Positions 11,286-17,169 of a DNA stretch of 64,000 nucleotides are shown here, piece after piece (position 1 is the first letter of the stretch; each line of letters opens with the position of its first letter). Made by a program: the position numbers and the translations under genes. Below the pieces are notes generated by a model that saw only the letters and a program-made list of their open reading frames with translations, made no database searches and was not told the DNA's origin. The stretch is from assembly GCA_003389385.1 (NCBI GenBank), contig QQVM01000017.1, forward strand, positions 260,443 through 324,442, read 5' to 3'. This stretch comes from Bacteroidota bacterium. GTDB taxonomy: Bacteria > Bacteroidota > Bacteroidia > AKYH767-A > 2013-40CM-41-45.

Positions 11286-11353
11286 TATTCCTCATGTGCC
11301 TATTGTTATTAAATATTTAATTGAAGCCCGATTTCCCATTACAATCTGTTGAG

Positions 11354-11361
11354 TACCTTTG
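11354..11361 (+). promoter_or_regulatory. -7 element abutting a start codon
   Basis: TACCTTTG matches the Bacteroidota -7 consensus TAnnTTTG and lies 4 bases before the ATG at 11366. An imperfect -33 element (TTTC) lies 18 bp upstream. If used, the transcript would begin at or next to the start codon. Confidence 0.4.
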
Positions 11362-11365
11362 CATT

Positions 11366-13990
11366 ATGATTAAAGTAAGCAAAAGACAGTGTGCCGGATT
11401 TCCGGTTGTGATGGCTTTTGCTTGTTTCATTTTGATTTTGTTTACGAGTTCCCGTCTCTTTTCTCAACCCTGCTTTGAAAAGTTTTACGGAGGAGCTTTG
11501 CAGGAGAAAGCAAATTATGTAATTCAGACTTCTGATAATGGTTATTTACTTGCTGGCTCCAGGAAGGATACTGCTTTCAATACCAGGGCTTATTTTTTAT
11601 TGAAGTTAGACAGCCTCGGGAAGGAGATGTGGTCTGCATCTTACGGTGATGCCAGAGATCAGGAAGCTTCAGCTGTGATTGAAATTCCCGATAGTGGTTA
11701 TGTATTTATCGGCACACACCATGCTGTGATTTATAATACTGTTGCTGAAATTGTCAAAACAGATTATTCTGGCAACAAAAAAACCGTGAAAGCATTTCCA
11801 CCGGCAGACGGGTGGGGAACCAACGGGATTGGAATTGTAAAAACAGCAGACACGAATTTTGCAATAACCATATTTACAGACGGTTTTATTTCTCAAAATT
11901 TCTATAGCATTCTAAAAATTGCACCTGACCTGAGTACGCAGTGGAGCAACTTTGTGTCTTTTGACGGATCGCTCATGAATGTACATGATGCAGTGCAGGC
12001 TTATGATAAAAGCTTTTATACACTGGGTTTTTATCCTGATTTCTTTTATGTGAGTCCAAGTATAAGTAATGTCACCGAAGTCAGAAAACTTGCCTCCAAC
12101 GGATCACTGATTTTTGATTCTCTGTATTTGTGGAATTCTGTATCAAAATCTGTTTCTCCTAATACTGACGGAGGTGCGGTTGTTTGTGGTTATGTGGATA
12201 CTTCAGGCAACAGGGATATTGCACTCACGCGAATTGACAGCAACGGTGCTGTGCTTTGGAATAAAAGAATCGGAGGAACAAGAAATGAGACGGGACTTCT
12301 GGCGAAAGAAACACCTGATGGCGGATATGCAATATTATCCAGTACCCCCCATGCTTACTTCCCTTTGCTCAATGATATTTTACTGACAAAGACAAATGCG
12401 AATGGAGACAGCTTGTGGTCAAGATCATTTGGTGGATATTTTAATGATGACGCTGTGCATTTTGAAATTGCAAGAGATGGTGGCTTTATAATTCTGGGAA
12501 GCAGCAACAGTTTTGACAGTTCCGGGATTTACCTCGTAAAAACCGACAGCATTGGGATTATCAGATCTCCTTATTCAATAGCATCACCGGGGAATTACCA
12601 TTGCAGAGGTGATTCCATCAGGCTGACATTGAATCCACATCCTGGTCCTGGTTCTACGGTGCATTGGTCTAATGGCATGTCTGGCGACAGCATACGGATT
12701 TCATCCACCGGAAACTACAGAGCAACGGTAATCGACAGCAGCGGTAAAGTTATTGAAACACCAAATCATTTTCTTTTTTTCGCCAACATCACTGATGCTA
12801 ATATCAGTACACTTGATACTTTTGGAATTTGTGCCGGAAGCCAACTGAAAAATCTGGCACCCGCAAGTCCCTCTTTCAGCTATCGTTGGTTTCTTGATGA
12901 CACCCTTTTAACCGGAATCACTTCAAATGCTTTGATTCCTTCAAGGCCCGGAGAATACAAACTGCAGGTAATGAATTACTGCGGAATGGATATTGACTCT
13001 GTATTCATCGATTCACTGTATCCTTTACCCTCACCTCCGGTGCTCAGCAGGACAGGAAACGTTTTTATTTGCGAAGCTGATACAATAGAATTGTTCACGA
13101 ATCCACTACCCGGACATTCTTACCAGTGGTGGTATGCGCCAAACATCAATGCCAGTCCGATTGCCGGGGCAACTGATTCTGTTCTCAGTCTGAGTCTGCC
13201 TGGAACTTATTTCGTTCAAGTAACTGAATCACATGGATGCACAAGCACATCCAATCCGCTGAATATTTTCATTGATAATTTTCCTTCATACGTCAACGTT
13301 TCTGGCCCATTGACTTTTTGCCAGGGAGGGCATGTGTTGTTAGCCGCGCCGACCGGACGAAACTACAGATGGAATACAGGTGACACACTTGGTTCCATTT
13401 CCGTTAAAGTAAGTGGGAGTTACTGGTACAGTATGACGAGCATGTTTGGATGTCCGAAAACCTCAGACACAGTAGTTGTAGATGTACTCCCCAGGCCTTT
13501 CGTAAATCTGGGACCTGATACAGTGATTTGCAGATCGCAACAAATTATTCTTGATCCTGGTCCGGGGTATTCCTCAGTAATCTGGCAAGATAATATAATT
13601 GCCCAAAGCATACTGGCAGAATATAAGCCAGGTGGACCCGACAGCGCGGTTTATATTGTCAGAGTCACAGACCAAAACAATTGCATGAATACAGATTCAA
13701 TAGTTGTTTTTTTCGACATCTGCCAAAATGTTTCTGGTTTTGAAAATCCTTCCATTTCTATTCATGCCGGAATTCTAACAGAATTTGATTTCGTTCGTAT
13801 CAATTCTCCCTACAAAGAAAATCTTGAAATGAAAATCATGGACCAATTTGGAAGGTTGTTGCAACAATTTCCTGTCAGAAGCGGACAAACAATTCAAAGG
13901 TTGAACCTAAGTAAATCGGGGATTTATTATTACAGCTTGGTAAGTGAAAGCAGGCTTTATAGTTCCGGCAAACTCTTGCTAATGAGGTGA
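11366..13990 (+). CDS. Large T9SS-exported protein with propeller-like repeats and Ig-like domains
   Basis: I use the ATG at 11366, which yields a signal peptide (MIKVSKRQ, hydrophobic core, cleavage near SRLFSQP) and 874 residues; an ATG 45 bp upstream adds a charged leader that makes no sense. Residues ~35-400 hold repeats of the form DSGYVFIGT / DGGYAILSS with ILLTKTNANGDSLWSRSFGG, each near 50-60 residues, as in a beta-propeller. Residues ~405-790 carry several Ig/PKD-like domains (VTDSNG-type strands, cysteines, SYQWWYAP). The last ~75 residues (MKIMDQFGRLLQQF to SGKLLLMR) look like a divergent type A sorting domain lacking the usual YPNP entry. The protein is probably a surface or secreted adhesin-like protein. 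The specific role is unknown, and it stands alone between a terminator and the metal-handling genes. Confidence 0.8.
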   Translation: MIKVSKRQCAGFPVVMAFACFILILFTSSRLFSQPCFEKFYGGALQEKANYVIQTSDNGYLLAGSRKDTAFNTRAYFLLKLDSLGKEMWSASYGDARDQEASAVIEIPDSGYVFIGTHHAVIYNTVAEIVKTDYSGNKKTVKAFPPADGWGTNGIGIVKTADTNFAITIFTDGFISQNFYSILKIAPDLSTQWSNFVSFDGSLMNVHDAVQAYDKSFYTLGFYPDFFYVSPSISNVTEVRKLASNGSLIFDSLYLWNSVSKSVSPNTDGGAVVCGYVDTSGNRDIALTRIDSNGAVLWNKRIGGTRNETGLLAKETPDGGYAILSSTPHAYFPLLNDILLTKTNANGDSLWSRSFGGYFNDDAVHFEIARDGGFIILGSSNSFDSSGIYLVKTDSIGIIRSPYSIASPGNYHCRGDSIRLTLNPHPGPGSTVHWSNGMSGDSIRISSTGNYRATVIDSSGKVIETPNHFLFFANITDANISTLDTFGICAGSQLKNLAPASPSFSYRWFLDDTLLTGITSNALIPSRPGEYKLQVMNYCGMDIDSVFIDSLYPLPSPPVLSRTGNVFICEADTIELFTNPLPGHSYQWWYAPNINASPIAGATDSVLSLSLPGTYFVQVTESHGCTSTSNPLNIFIDNFPSYVNVSGPLTFCQGGHVLLAAPTGRNYRWNTGDTLGSISVKVSGSYWYSMTSMFGCPKTSDTVVVDVLPRPFVNLGPDTVICRSQQIILDPGPGYSSVIWQDNIIAQSILAEYKPGGPDSAVYIVRVTDQNNCMNTDSIVVFFDICQNVSGFENPSISIHAGILTEFDFVRINSPYKENLEMKIMDQFGRLLQQFPVRSGQTIQRLNLSKSGIYYYSLVSESRLYSSGKLLLMR

Positions 13991-14039: not shown

Positions 14040-14462
14040 GTGTTGAAGAAAATCAAATCCATACTGGCTTTTGTTTTGATCGTGAGCATCGTGGTATCAA
14101 CCGGTGGCATTGCGGTAGCTGCTCATTTATGTAAAAACAAAGTGGATACCGCTCTTTCATTTTTCGATTCATTTGAAAATTGTTGCGGAGATTCAAAAGA
14201 CTCATGCCATAAGCCTGTCAAAGAGTTGAAGAAGCCCAGATGTTGTGAGTTAAAAATTTCTTACTTCAAAGCTGACTTGCCCAGTATTATCAATGAACCT
14301 TTAAAGGTTAACAAGCATGAGCTGATTTCATATTCAGTTTTTCATTTCAAAAGCATTTTTTCGTTTTGCAATGTTTCTGAGCTCATTCAATATAATACAG
14401 GGCCACCCAAACAGAACGGGGGAGTCAATTTTCTTCATTTTACAGGTCAACTCCTGATCTGA
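14040..14462 (+). CDS. Small Cys-rich membrane-linked protein (HYC_CC_PP-like) of a metal locus
   Basis: The frame extends to a TTG at 14022, but the -7 element overlaps that stretch, so I prefer the GTG at 14040 (or the TTG directly after it), giving 140 residues. A transmembrane or signal segment spans about 5-28. After it come H29-L-C31, a Cys pair at 48-49, C56-H57, another Cys pair at 68-69, and a GPP near the C-terminus. This layout matches a small family, seen in Bacteroidota beside TonB receptors and HMA proteins, named for its HYC, CC and PP motifs; here the first motif is HLC. The thiols and histidines suggest binding of a soft metal such as copper. It is followed 67 bp later by the TonB receptor. 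Function is inference. Confidence 0.65.
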   Translation: MLKKIKSILAFVLIVSIVVSTGGIAVAAHLCKNKVDTALSFFDSFENCCGDSKDSCHKPVKELKKPRCCELKISYFKADLPSIINEPLKVNKHELISYSVFHFKSIFSFCNVSELIQYNTGPPKQNGGVNFLHFTGQLLI

Positions 14463-14529: not shown

Positions 14530-16806
14530 ATGGAAAAAATCAGATATAAATTAATTTCATCTGTATCATTTCGCCTCATTAGGCGAACGATACAGTCAAT
14601 TGCAATAATGCTTATCTGCATAGGCTCGTATCATGATGCAAAGAGTCAGGTGCTGATCAGAGGTAAAGTGGTGGAAATTTCTGAAAAAGGAACAGAACAA
14701 GGTCTTGCCGGCGCTAATGTGTACTGGATTCCCGGTCTTCAGGCTACAGTGACCGATGCATCTGGGGAATTCAAAATTGATGCACCCTCAGAACTGCCGT
14801 TAACATTAGTCATTTCCTTTGTCGGTTTTAAGAACGACACGATCAGAGTGGGTGATAACAAGTTCATTAAAGTATCTTTGGAAAAAACCATTGACCTTAG
14901 TGCGGTTGAAATTCAGGCACGTCAGGAAGCAACAGTTGTTTCAACCATTCAGCCCATCAATGTTGAAAAAATCACACAACAGGAGCTTCAGAAGGCCGCC
15001 TGTTGCAACCTTTCAGAATCTTTCGAGACCAGTCCTACTGTCAACGTTGCATATAAGGATGCCGTTACAGGTGCGAAAGAGATTCAAATGCTGGGACTTG
15101 CAGGAAGGTATACTCAGATAATGACGGAGAATATTCCTACTAACAGAGGAATTGGCGGTGTATATGGACTCACATTCATTCCTGGACCCTGGATGGAATC
15201 AATACAAGTAACCAAAGGCAGCGGTTCCGTAGCGAATGGATACGAATCCACAACCGGTCAGATTAATATCGAGTATCTTAAACCGGATGTGATCGAAACC
15301 CCGCGATTTCACCTCAATCTTTTTGGTGAAACCAATGGCAATATGGAAATTAACTCATACCTGAAGAAAAGGTTTAATGATAAGTGGAGTTCCATGTTGT
15401 TCGTTCATGGAAATTACATGGATAAAGAAATGGATCATAATCACGATCAGTTTCTTGATATTCCGACAGGTAATCAAATCAATATCGGAAACAGGTGGAG
15501 GTATCACAGCAGGAAGAAACTTGAATCACAGTTTGGATTCAATATCCTGAGCGATGTGAGAGAAGGCGGGCAGACCAAGGATGCACATATTCACTCCTCA
15601 AATGGTTTGTACCGCACAAAAGTTGAAAACCGCCGCGCTGAAGTGTATGGGAAACTCGGATTTATTTATCCTGATAAATTATTCAAGTCATTAGGAAATA
15701 TAATTAAGGCTGAAGTACATGACCTGCAGACGAAATTCGGACTGCGTAATTATGACGCTGTTCAAAGCAGTCTTCAGCTGCAGAGTATCTATCAGAACAC
15801 TTTTAGAAAAACAAATCATCAGTATAAAATTGGACTGAGCTATTTATATGAAAACCTTGACCAAAATTTACTCACAGAATTCTGGACTTACACAGAACAT
15901 GTGCCTGGTTTGTTCACGGAATATACATACAATCATATAGATAAGTTTACTTTGATCGCAGGGCTCAGGCAGGATCATCATTCTCAATTTGGCTGGGTTA
16001 CTACACCAAGGTTGCATATGAAATACAGTTTCAGCGAATATTTTATTGCAAGAGCAAGTGCGGGTCGCGGATTCAGAGTGCCTTACATGATTGCCGACAA
16101 TATAAGTGTGCTGGCTTCTTCCAAAGCGCTTGATTTGTTGGATAAAGTTCAACCGGAAAGAGCATGGAATTATGGATTAAATGCAACAAAGAAATTTAGT
16201 CTTTTTAACAGAGAGTCTTCTTTGTCTGCTGATTTTTACCGCACAGTATTTTCAGATCAGTTAATTATGGACCCATACAGCGATTCATCAAGAATTCTCT
16301 TTTACAATCTTGACGGGCAATCTTTCGCGAACAGTTTTCAGGCTACATTCAACATTTCTCTGATGCACAATCTTGAGTTAAGACTCGCATACAAATCAGA
16401 TGATGTTAAGATTACTTACAAAGGGCAAGGACTGATCAGAAAGCCGCTGGTAGCCAAAGAGCGCGCATTGATGAATCTTGCATTCAAAACCGGAAACGAT
16501 TTGTGGAAGCTGGATTACACACTGATAATGGAAGGAAAGAAAAGATTGCCACTAACATTTGAAGATGCTGAAATCGGTGCATTACCGGATTACTCTCCGC
16601 AATTCTATATCATGCACCTGCAACTGACTAAAGTATTCAGGAAGTTCGAGATTTACGGAGGAGTGGAAAATCTATTGGATTATACACAGGATAATCCTGT
16701 AATCAATCCGCAAAATCCGTTTTCAACCGACTTTGATGCTTCTGTAATTTGGGGGCCTATAGACGGTAGAAGAGTTTATGCAGGACTTCGTTACAATATC
16801 TATTAA
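14530..16806 (+). CDS. TonB-dependent receptor of a heavy-metal locus
   Basis: This 758-residue outer-membrane receptor has a signal region ending near DAKSQ (residue ~40), a carboxypeptidase-like regulatory domain at ~42-120 (VRG-type strand LIRGKVVEISEKG, then FVGFKNDTIRVGDN), a plug domain at ~140-260 and a 22-strand barrel to the end. The plug starts with an unusual adjacent Cys pair, C158-C159, in QKAACCNLSESF, and contains the typical MESIQVTKGSGSVANGYESTTGQINIEY. Its neighbours are a Cys-rich small protein upstream and an exported HMA metallochaperone 18 bp downstream, which points to uptake of a metal or metal complex, probably copper. The substrate is inference from context. Confidence 0.88.
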   Translation: MEKIRYKLISSVSFRLIRRTIQSIAIMLICIGSYHDAKSQVLIRGKVVEISEKGTEQGLAGANVYWIPGLQATVTDASGEFKIDAPSELPLTLVISFVGFKNDTIRVGDNKFIKVSLEKTIDLSAVEIQARQEATVVSTIQPINVEKITQQELQKAACCNLSESFETSPTVNVAYKDAVTGAKEIQMLGLAGRYTQIMTENIPTNRGIGGVYGLTFIPGPWMESIQVTKGSGSVANGYESTTGQINIEYLKPDVIETPRFHLNLFGETNGNMEINSYLKKRFNDKWSSMLFVHGNYMDKEMDHNHDQFLDIPTGNQINIGNRWRYHSRKKLESQFGFNILSDVREGGQTKDAHIHSSNGLYRTKVENRRAEVYGKLGFIYPDKLFKSLGNIIKAEVHDLQTKFGLRNYDAVQSSLQLQSIYQNTFRKTNHQYKIGLSYLYENLDQNLLTEFWTYTEHVPGLFTEYTYNHIDKFTLIAGLRQDHHSQFGWVTTPRLHMKYSFSEYFIARASAGRGFRVPYMIADNISVLASSKALDLLDKVQPERAWNYGLNATKKFSLFNRESSLSADFYRTVFSDQLIMDPYSDSSRILFYNLDGQSFANSFQATFNISLMHNLELRLAYKSDDVKITYKGQGLIRKPLVAKERALMNLAFKTGNDLWKLDYTLIMEGKKRLPLTFEDAEIGALPDYSPQFYIMHLQLTKVFRKFEIYGGVENLLDYTQDNPVINPQNPFSTDFDASVIWGPIDGRRVYAGLRYNIY

Positions 16807-16824
16807 CCAATAAAAATTATTATC

Positions 16825-17169
16825 ATGAAAAAAATGATTAAGTATATATTAAGCCTGACTATTCTGATGATGTCAGCTACAGTTTCAAGAGCTCAAAATG
16901 ATACCCTTGTGATTCAAACCAATTCTGTTTGCAATACCTGTAAAAAAATAATTGAGAGGGATATGATGTTTGAGAAGGGAGTGAAGTCCGCATCTCTCAA
17001 TGTGGAATCGAAAGAGCTTACCTTGATTTACCAGGAAGGAAAAACAGATGCAGGGAAACTCAGGATTGCGGTTTCAAAAATCGGTTACGATGCTGACAAC
17101 ATACCTGCGGATGCCAAAGCAAGGCAACGCTTACCTGACTGCTGCAAAAATCCTGATGCACATCACTGA
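16825..17169 (+). CDS. Exported heavy-metal-associated (HMA) domain protein
   Basis: The 114-residue protein has a signal peptide (cleavage near SRAQN, residue ~24) and an HMA ferredoxin-like fold. The metal site CNTC at 36-39 sits in NSVCNTCKKIIERDM, and the later strands (VKSASLNVESKELTLIYQ, then AVSKIGYDADNIPADA) follow the family. A second possible ligand cluster lies at the C-terminus: C106-C107 and the terminal His-His. HMA domains carry Cu(I), Zn or similar ions. Being periplasmic and directly behind a TonB receptor, it would accept metal entering through the outer membrane. Its last 7 bases overlap, tail to tail, the end of the amidohydrolase gene. Confidence 0.87.
   Translation: MKKMIKYILSLTILMMSATVSRAQNDTLVIQTNSVCNTCKKIIERDMMFEKGVKSASLNVESKELTLIYQEGKTDAGKLRIAVSKIGYDADNIPADAKARQRLPDCCKNPDAHH

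Follow-up and report, generated by a model that had tools for sequence, protein, structure and literature searches.

Three genes in the window, a 64,000-nucleotide stretch of DNA from a Bacteroidota bacterium, may form an acquisition unit for a copper-type metal (Cu(I), perhaps Ag(I)), in which two thiols in the plug of a TonB-dependent receptor would deliver the metal to a periplasmic HMA protein. We put the probability of this reading at about 0.5. We infer the Cu(I)-like identity of the metal, its inward direction, its binding by the cysteine pair and its hand-over to the HMA protein. The genes lie in the order HYC_CC_PP gene, receptor gene, HMA gene, the last beginning 18 bases past the receptor stop codon, and each of the three products has its own cysteine motifs, namely HLC and CC for HYC_CC_PP, a plug CC for the receptor, and CxxC with a tail CC for the HMA protein. 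The features are as follows.

14040..14462, + strand: HYC_CC_PP family protein, cysteine-rich, with a signal-like start (NCBIfam NF047658, 35.1 bits against a cut-off of 28)
14530..16806, + strand: TonB-dependent receptor of 758 aa, with CarboxypepD_reg-like domain, plug and barrel (Pfam PF13715, PF07715, PF00593)
14953..15258, + strand: plug domain, residues 142-243 (Pfam PF07715)
15001..15006, + strand: adjacent cysteine pair C158-C159, codons TGT TGC (direct reading and conservation)
15433..15459, + strand: DxNxDxFxD motif, residues 302-310, between two barrel strands (alignment of 82 sequences; loop place from the AF2 model)
16825..17169, + strand: HMA protein of 114 aa with a signal-like start (Pfam PF00403, 27.1 bits against a cut-off of 24.8)
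16930..16941, + strand: CNTC metal-site motif of the HMA domain, C36 and C39 (direct reading)
17140..17145, + strand: second CC pair of the HMA protein, in an LPxCC tail near the C-terminus (direct reading)

The product of 14530-16806 is a predicted TonB-dependent outer-membrane receptor, with both Plug and beta-barrel domains, and its three Pfam matches all score above the cut-offs. The vitamin B12 receptor model for BtuB, NF007926, gave it 39.9 bits against a cut-off of 836. The original prediction had placed C158-C159 at the beginning of the plug, and the pair indeed sits 16-17 residues inside the Plug match. By direct reading the receptor has cysteines at 30, 158 and 159 and no others; C30 falls within the N-terminus that reads as signal-like (by reading, not by a signal predictor), suggesting that C158-C159 are very probably the sole thiol site of the mature receptor. 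The claim that such a pair is rare in plugs was borne out: among the 22 Plug matches of the window's genome, CC occurs in the frame of one, the window receptor, with some of the frames incomplete because the loci covered only about 3.3 kb each.

The product of 16825-17169 is, by its Pfam match and its CxxC, a predicted HMA-domain protein. This agrees with the earlier statement that the next gene exports a CxxC HMA protein: the start is signal-like and CNTC occupies residues 36-39. In 43 aligned HMA proteins C36 was invariant and C39 was kept in at least 90%, and 101 of the 117 HMA proteins adjacent to receptors have a CC beyond residue 80. The window protein scored 27 bits with the MerP model TIGR02052 (cut-off 92.55) and 27.5 bits with the CopZ chaperone model NF033795 (cut-off 91), below both. 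The HYC_CC_PP gene likely starts at GTG 14040 or TTG 14043, as against 14022 in the list of open reading frames.

To sample the receptor family we searched 395 genomes of the phylum by whole-protein similarity at E 1e-40, which gave a match in 149 genomes. Family and paralogs were divided by bit score: the 105 genomes with a receptor frame of at least 289 bits were taken as the family, and a second group reached at most 223 bits among the matches listed. All 105 family loci (L035-L139) and 15 paralog loci of the second group (L140-L154) were fetched. By this division the receptor is common in Bacteroidota-type bacteria (105 of the 395 sampled genomes), and a HYC_CC_PP profile match lay within the fetched stretch of 86 of the 105 loci.

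The CC pair, which the search had not used, stood at the plug site of every family member (105 of 105), and the 15 sampled paralogs all lacked it. The pair was also present in 80 of 80 further named loci, a biased set, since ACC was part of one of the two patterns used to find them. An alignment of 82 sequences, made up of the window receptor and 81 of the 92 further members without a fusion (the 11 omitted were mostly near-copies), had 30 invariant positions out of 758, and C158-C159 were the only cysteines among them. Shared descent accounts for part of this conservation. In the same alignment D302, D306 and D310 of the DxNxDxFxD motif were invariant, and N304 and F308 were kept in at least 90%; this barrel loop, perhaps extracellular, resembles a calcium-type loop and may have a calcium role. 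The paralogs, which form the nearest paralogous receptor family, themselves carry a CxxC in the plug, further on than the CC site, in all 15 loci read (NCNVCNTGDI or DCAVCGTNNI type), and these 15 loci show no HMA neighbours.

The AF2 model of the window receptor (pLDDT 91) matched Cir with Z 34.3, BtuB with Z 33.9 and OprC with Z 30.7; Cir and BtuB are the nearest solved structures, the VIA-align comparison being confined to Foldseek's own matches. In the model C158-C159 occupy a short loop flanked by helices 150-155 and 161-164. When E. coli BtuB was added to the family alignment, the pair aligned with S39-T40 (mature numbering with a 20-residue signal, L23 being consistent with the available text of PMC5413942), with a weak overall match of 7.1 bits, and the Cir alignments gave the same place in the plug. 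Residues 23-73 of BtuB are described in that text as the segment that unfolds under TonB pulling (PMC5413942). The alignments thus support a position of the pair in the TonB-proximal plug segment, corresponding to the pulled part of BtuB.

The link between the receptor and the HMA protein proved extensive. In the 105 family loci an HMA gene lay downstream of the receptor in 45 and upstream in 21, and in 12 the HMA domain was fused to the receptor N-terminus, so that the two were adjacent in 66 and adjacent or fused in 78. For the remaining 27 loci, an HMA protein was encoded elsewhere in the stretch in 2 and none was found in 25, of which 4 were at contig ends. The counts in the 80 named loci were as follows (downstream 35, upstream 15, fused 19, elsewhere in the stretch 2, none found 9), and at least one HMA-linked case occurred in 22 of the 25 families, by family code, that carry the receptor. 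The 12 fusions each read as a signal-like start, HMA domain, CC tail, linker and plug; several had the HMA unit doubled, and no CarboxypepD_reg-like part was seen by eye. An AF2 model of a fused receptor showed an HMA-like fold, then a segment with pLDDT below 50 at residues 117-140, then the plug. On a FastTree tree built with the pair masked, two counting methods gave 4 to 5 changes for the fused label, and all linkage states taken together required 25 to 31; strongly supported branches of the FastTree tree force at least three changes of the fused label.

Co-occurrence across genomes gave the same picture. At E 1e-18 the HMA profile matched 98 of the 105 genomes with the receptor versus 37 of the 290 without it, an odds ratio of 96; as the genomes are related by kinship, the Fisher p value should not be read as a true probability. 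In 12 of the 98 the receptor is a fusion, and its HMA domain may account for the match. The seven receptor genomes without an HMA match at that threshold were G064, G066, G109, G158, G180, G184 and G373, and in G064 and G158 a weaker HMA match adjoins the receptor. When 21 unlinked genomes were searched whole, an HMA protein of the family profile was encoded elsewhere in 18 (E 2.9e-21 or better) and none was found in G066, G184 and G373. In G184 and G373 a YHS protein is encoded 27 bases downstream of the receptor. YHS proteins stand beside five family members in all, and two of these, L127 and L130, come from genomes that also have an HMA protein. The YHS-type protein that adjoins the receptor in these loci (L046, L047, L187, L127 and L130) has a signal-like start, Pfam YHS having been run for L046 and L127.

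Because HMA genes adjoin the receptor on either side, are fused to its N-terminus and co-occur with it across genomes, a functional coupling of the CC receptor with the HMA protein is strongly supported, as far as gene order and content can speak. A search of plasmid records gave four hits, and in two of the three examined an HMA protein is annotated as adjoining the receptor; the Haliscomenobacter plasmid record has no HMA annotated in the stretch and a CusA/CzcA pump further along. The HMA neighbour in L126 has lost the second cysteine of its CxxC while the receptor keeps its pair. The HMA protein of L129 has perhaps undergone the same loss.

The original prediction had offered the pair as something to be compared between receptors with and without HMA neighbours, and as a mark of HMA linkage we reject it: the pair is invariant in every member examined, including all 27 unlinked receptors of the 105. 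Its absence from most HMA-linked receptors had been named as evidence against the hand-over, and here the pair was present in every one examined. Since the pair is independent of local HMA linkage, it seems to serve the core work of the receptor, with the partner mostly encoded elsewhere when it is not nearby. The equal invariance in the 27 unlinked receptors nonetheless counts against the copper-import reading, as do the seven receptor genomes without an HMA match and the cysteine lost from the HMA protein in L126.

The same observation favors the main rival explanation, which we consider unlikely: that the pair is redox-active or structural, forming a disulfide, either vicinal or mixed with the HYC or HMA protein, by which the plug is stiffened or gated, while no metal is held there and the HMA protein collects periplasmic metal downstream. 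The periplasm is oxidising, which also fits. Moreover, 67 of the 92 non-fused receptors have no further cysteine after residue 30, so that an internal disulfide in these chains could join only the neighbours C158-C159. The buried structural disulfide that had been named as an objection to the original prediction therefore fails for those 67 as a bond with a third cysteine, and survives as a vicinal one. On the other side, none of the 15 paralogs sampled from the same fold family has the pair, nor do the remaining 21 plug frames of the window's genome, suggesting that plugs in general can be stable without it.

We then considered which metal the receptor might serve, using the genes near it in all 185 family loci. 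P-type ATPases, picked by DKTGT plus any of CPC, CPH, SPC or TPC, were in the fetched stretch of 7 loci, and all 7 bear CPC. CusA-like frames were found by motif in 2 loci (L102, confirmed by profile, and L127, by motif alone), an HMA-MauE membrane protein in 14, several of them at gaps of 0-16 bases (a fifteenth hit, in L056, is the ATPase already counted), and an AraC-type regulator near the receptor in 13. Combined, 28 of the 185 loci have at least one such neighbour, L041 being a weak case (opposite strand, other length), and 157 have none of the copper-type neighbours sought. All four kinds of neighbour were absent from the 15 paralog loci. The ATPase of L058 scored 577 with the copper-ATPase model TIGR01511 (cut-off 397). 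Both this ATPase and that of L301 exceeded the copper-translocating cut-off and, at lower scores, that of the cadmium family, TIGR01512; neither reached the CopA equivalog cut-off.

Loci of related HMA proteins were also inspected: 16 of the 20 fetched were read, 12 of them from genomes that lack the receptor. CusA- or CusB-like frames are present in six of the 12 (L290-L293, L296 and L306, with L292, L293 and L296 judged by eye), and in L294 and L297 no metal genes were seen nearby. The CusA/CzcA profile TIGR00914, one model for both pumps, scored above its cut-off in L291, L306 and L102. In L291 a related HMA protein adjoins the CusA/CzcA pump and a HYC protein. By profile, L290 and L300 encode an RND adaptor with a heavy-metal-binding domain. 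In L300, from a receptor genome, an HMA domain of the receptor-associated type is fused to the C-terminus of this CusB-like adaptor (L300:3687-5282), which scored 117 against the CusB cut-off of 390.

Taken together, these neighbours point to copper as the likeliest metal, which is not to say proven: the ATPase and pump models also fit other metals, and copper is thus not singled out. A service to heme-copper oxidases is a weak candidate, as at least three receptor genomes (G238, G347 and G351) had no COX1 match at E 1e-40, in a test of low power because COX1 is present in 371 of the 395 genomes.

It is accordingly conceivable, though decidedly unlikely in our judgment, that the receptor serves another soft ion or metalloid (Zn, Cd, Hg, As or Ag) and that the copper-type neighbours are general metal-stress gene sets. 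HMA and YHS domains are not specific to copper, the L058 and L301 ATPases pass the cadmium-family cut-off, the pumps fit a CusA/CzcA model, and the receptor of L223 (4731-8304) lies between a thioredoxin-like gene and genes that by eye resemble arsR and arsenate reductase. Against this, the ATPase filter would equally have listed SPC, CPH or TPC and all seven were CPC, and the copper model outscored the cadmium model in both ATPases tested. Finally, it is very improbable that the receptor takes up iron or an organic ligand and gives an indirect protection against copper, as is reported in the available text on the TonB receptor CciT of Caulobacter (PMC12004943), with the HMA protein an independent resistance gene of the same operon: receptors with such copper phenotypes exist (PMC12004943) and the fold is closest to Cir and BtuB, but independent action would leave the repeated HMA-receptor fusions without a ready explanation.

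In the copper-import reading that we prefer, the receptor would bring the metal across the outer membrane with energy from TonB, and C158-C159, located in the early plug segment that TonB presumably draws out, would act as a transient two-thiol site. As the plug segment is drawn into the periplasm, the metal might pass to the CxxC of the HMA protein, perhaps also to its tail CC; this partner would be a free protein in the window's genome, whereas other genomes have it covalently joined to the receptor. It could then serve other copper proteins, for which the HMA-MauE, CopA-like and Cus-like neighbours are candidates. A more specific version, in which the plug is itself a metal carrier, TonB force exposing a two-thiol Cu(I) site to a sometimes tethered chaperone so that copper is never free, is one we propose tentatively, as a possibility somewhat short of probable. 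The soft-metal hand-over that had been suggested from the window thus gained a receptor-HMA coupling, soft-metal surroundings with copper most likely, and a TonB-proximal place for the pair, and lost the tie between pair and HMA linkage.

To our knowledge, little is understood of the way in which a metal departs from a TonB receptor and is safely guarded in the periplasm. With a fixed thiol site whose position in the plug is defined, natural fusions of receptor and chaperone, and what look like natural partner swaps (HMA or YHS), this family makes the hand-over step open to direct testing. If the metal is copper-like, these features suggest that it may go straight from receptor to chaperone.

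Several known systems resemble this one in part. OprC of Pseudomonas aeruginosa is likewise TonB-dependent and has a cysteine copper ligand in its plug (Cys143, with Met147); the available text of PMC8610252 describes CxxxM in the plug and HxM in the barrel wall, and mentions no fused or adjacent HMA protein. By direct reading the window receptor has neither CxxxM nor HxM, which sets it apart from the OprC type of copper receptor, and CxxxM occurs at the pair position in 0 of 185 relatives. For Bizionia argentinensis, a member of the Bacteroidota, an OprC-like protein has been put forward as the receptor for copper; it is said in the available text to bear CxxxM-HxM and by that description would differ from the window family (PMC11213822). 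The absence of both motifs from the window receptor and the proposal of this other receptor weigh against the copper-import reading. The CrtA/BfrG family, reported mainly in beta- and gamma-Proteobacteria, consists of TonB-dependent copper transporters, as proposed here, but the site described is formed by His, Glu, Gln, Arg, Trp and Tyr, with no cysteine mentioned in the available main text (PMC12914433). COX17 binds one Cu(I) through adjacent surface cysteines, Cys22/Cys23, and passes the copper on (PMC7582641, available text), yet it is a small soluble mitochondrial protein of unrelated fold. CusA/CusB-type systems also tie a periplasmic metal chaperone to a membrane machine by gene order or fusion, the machine there being an efflux RND pump and here a TonB receptor. 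E. coli BtuB shares the fold and plug topology of the window receptor (Z 33.9, as above), but has no cysteine pair at the aligned site and takes vitamin B12 as its substrate. Neither an HMA-receptor fusion nor a CC pair in the plug was named in any title or abstract among the matches listed, in a search that most subscription journals lay outside.

Two further observations concern the window's own genome. Directly upstream of the operon, at 11321-13990, lies a gene for a large protein with an Ig_7 domain and a type IX secretion tail. The paralog encoded in this genome (G000:C7:81042-83042; L002, L151) adjoins a gene that by eye resembles a DtxR/MntR-type regulator.
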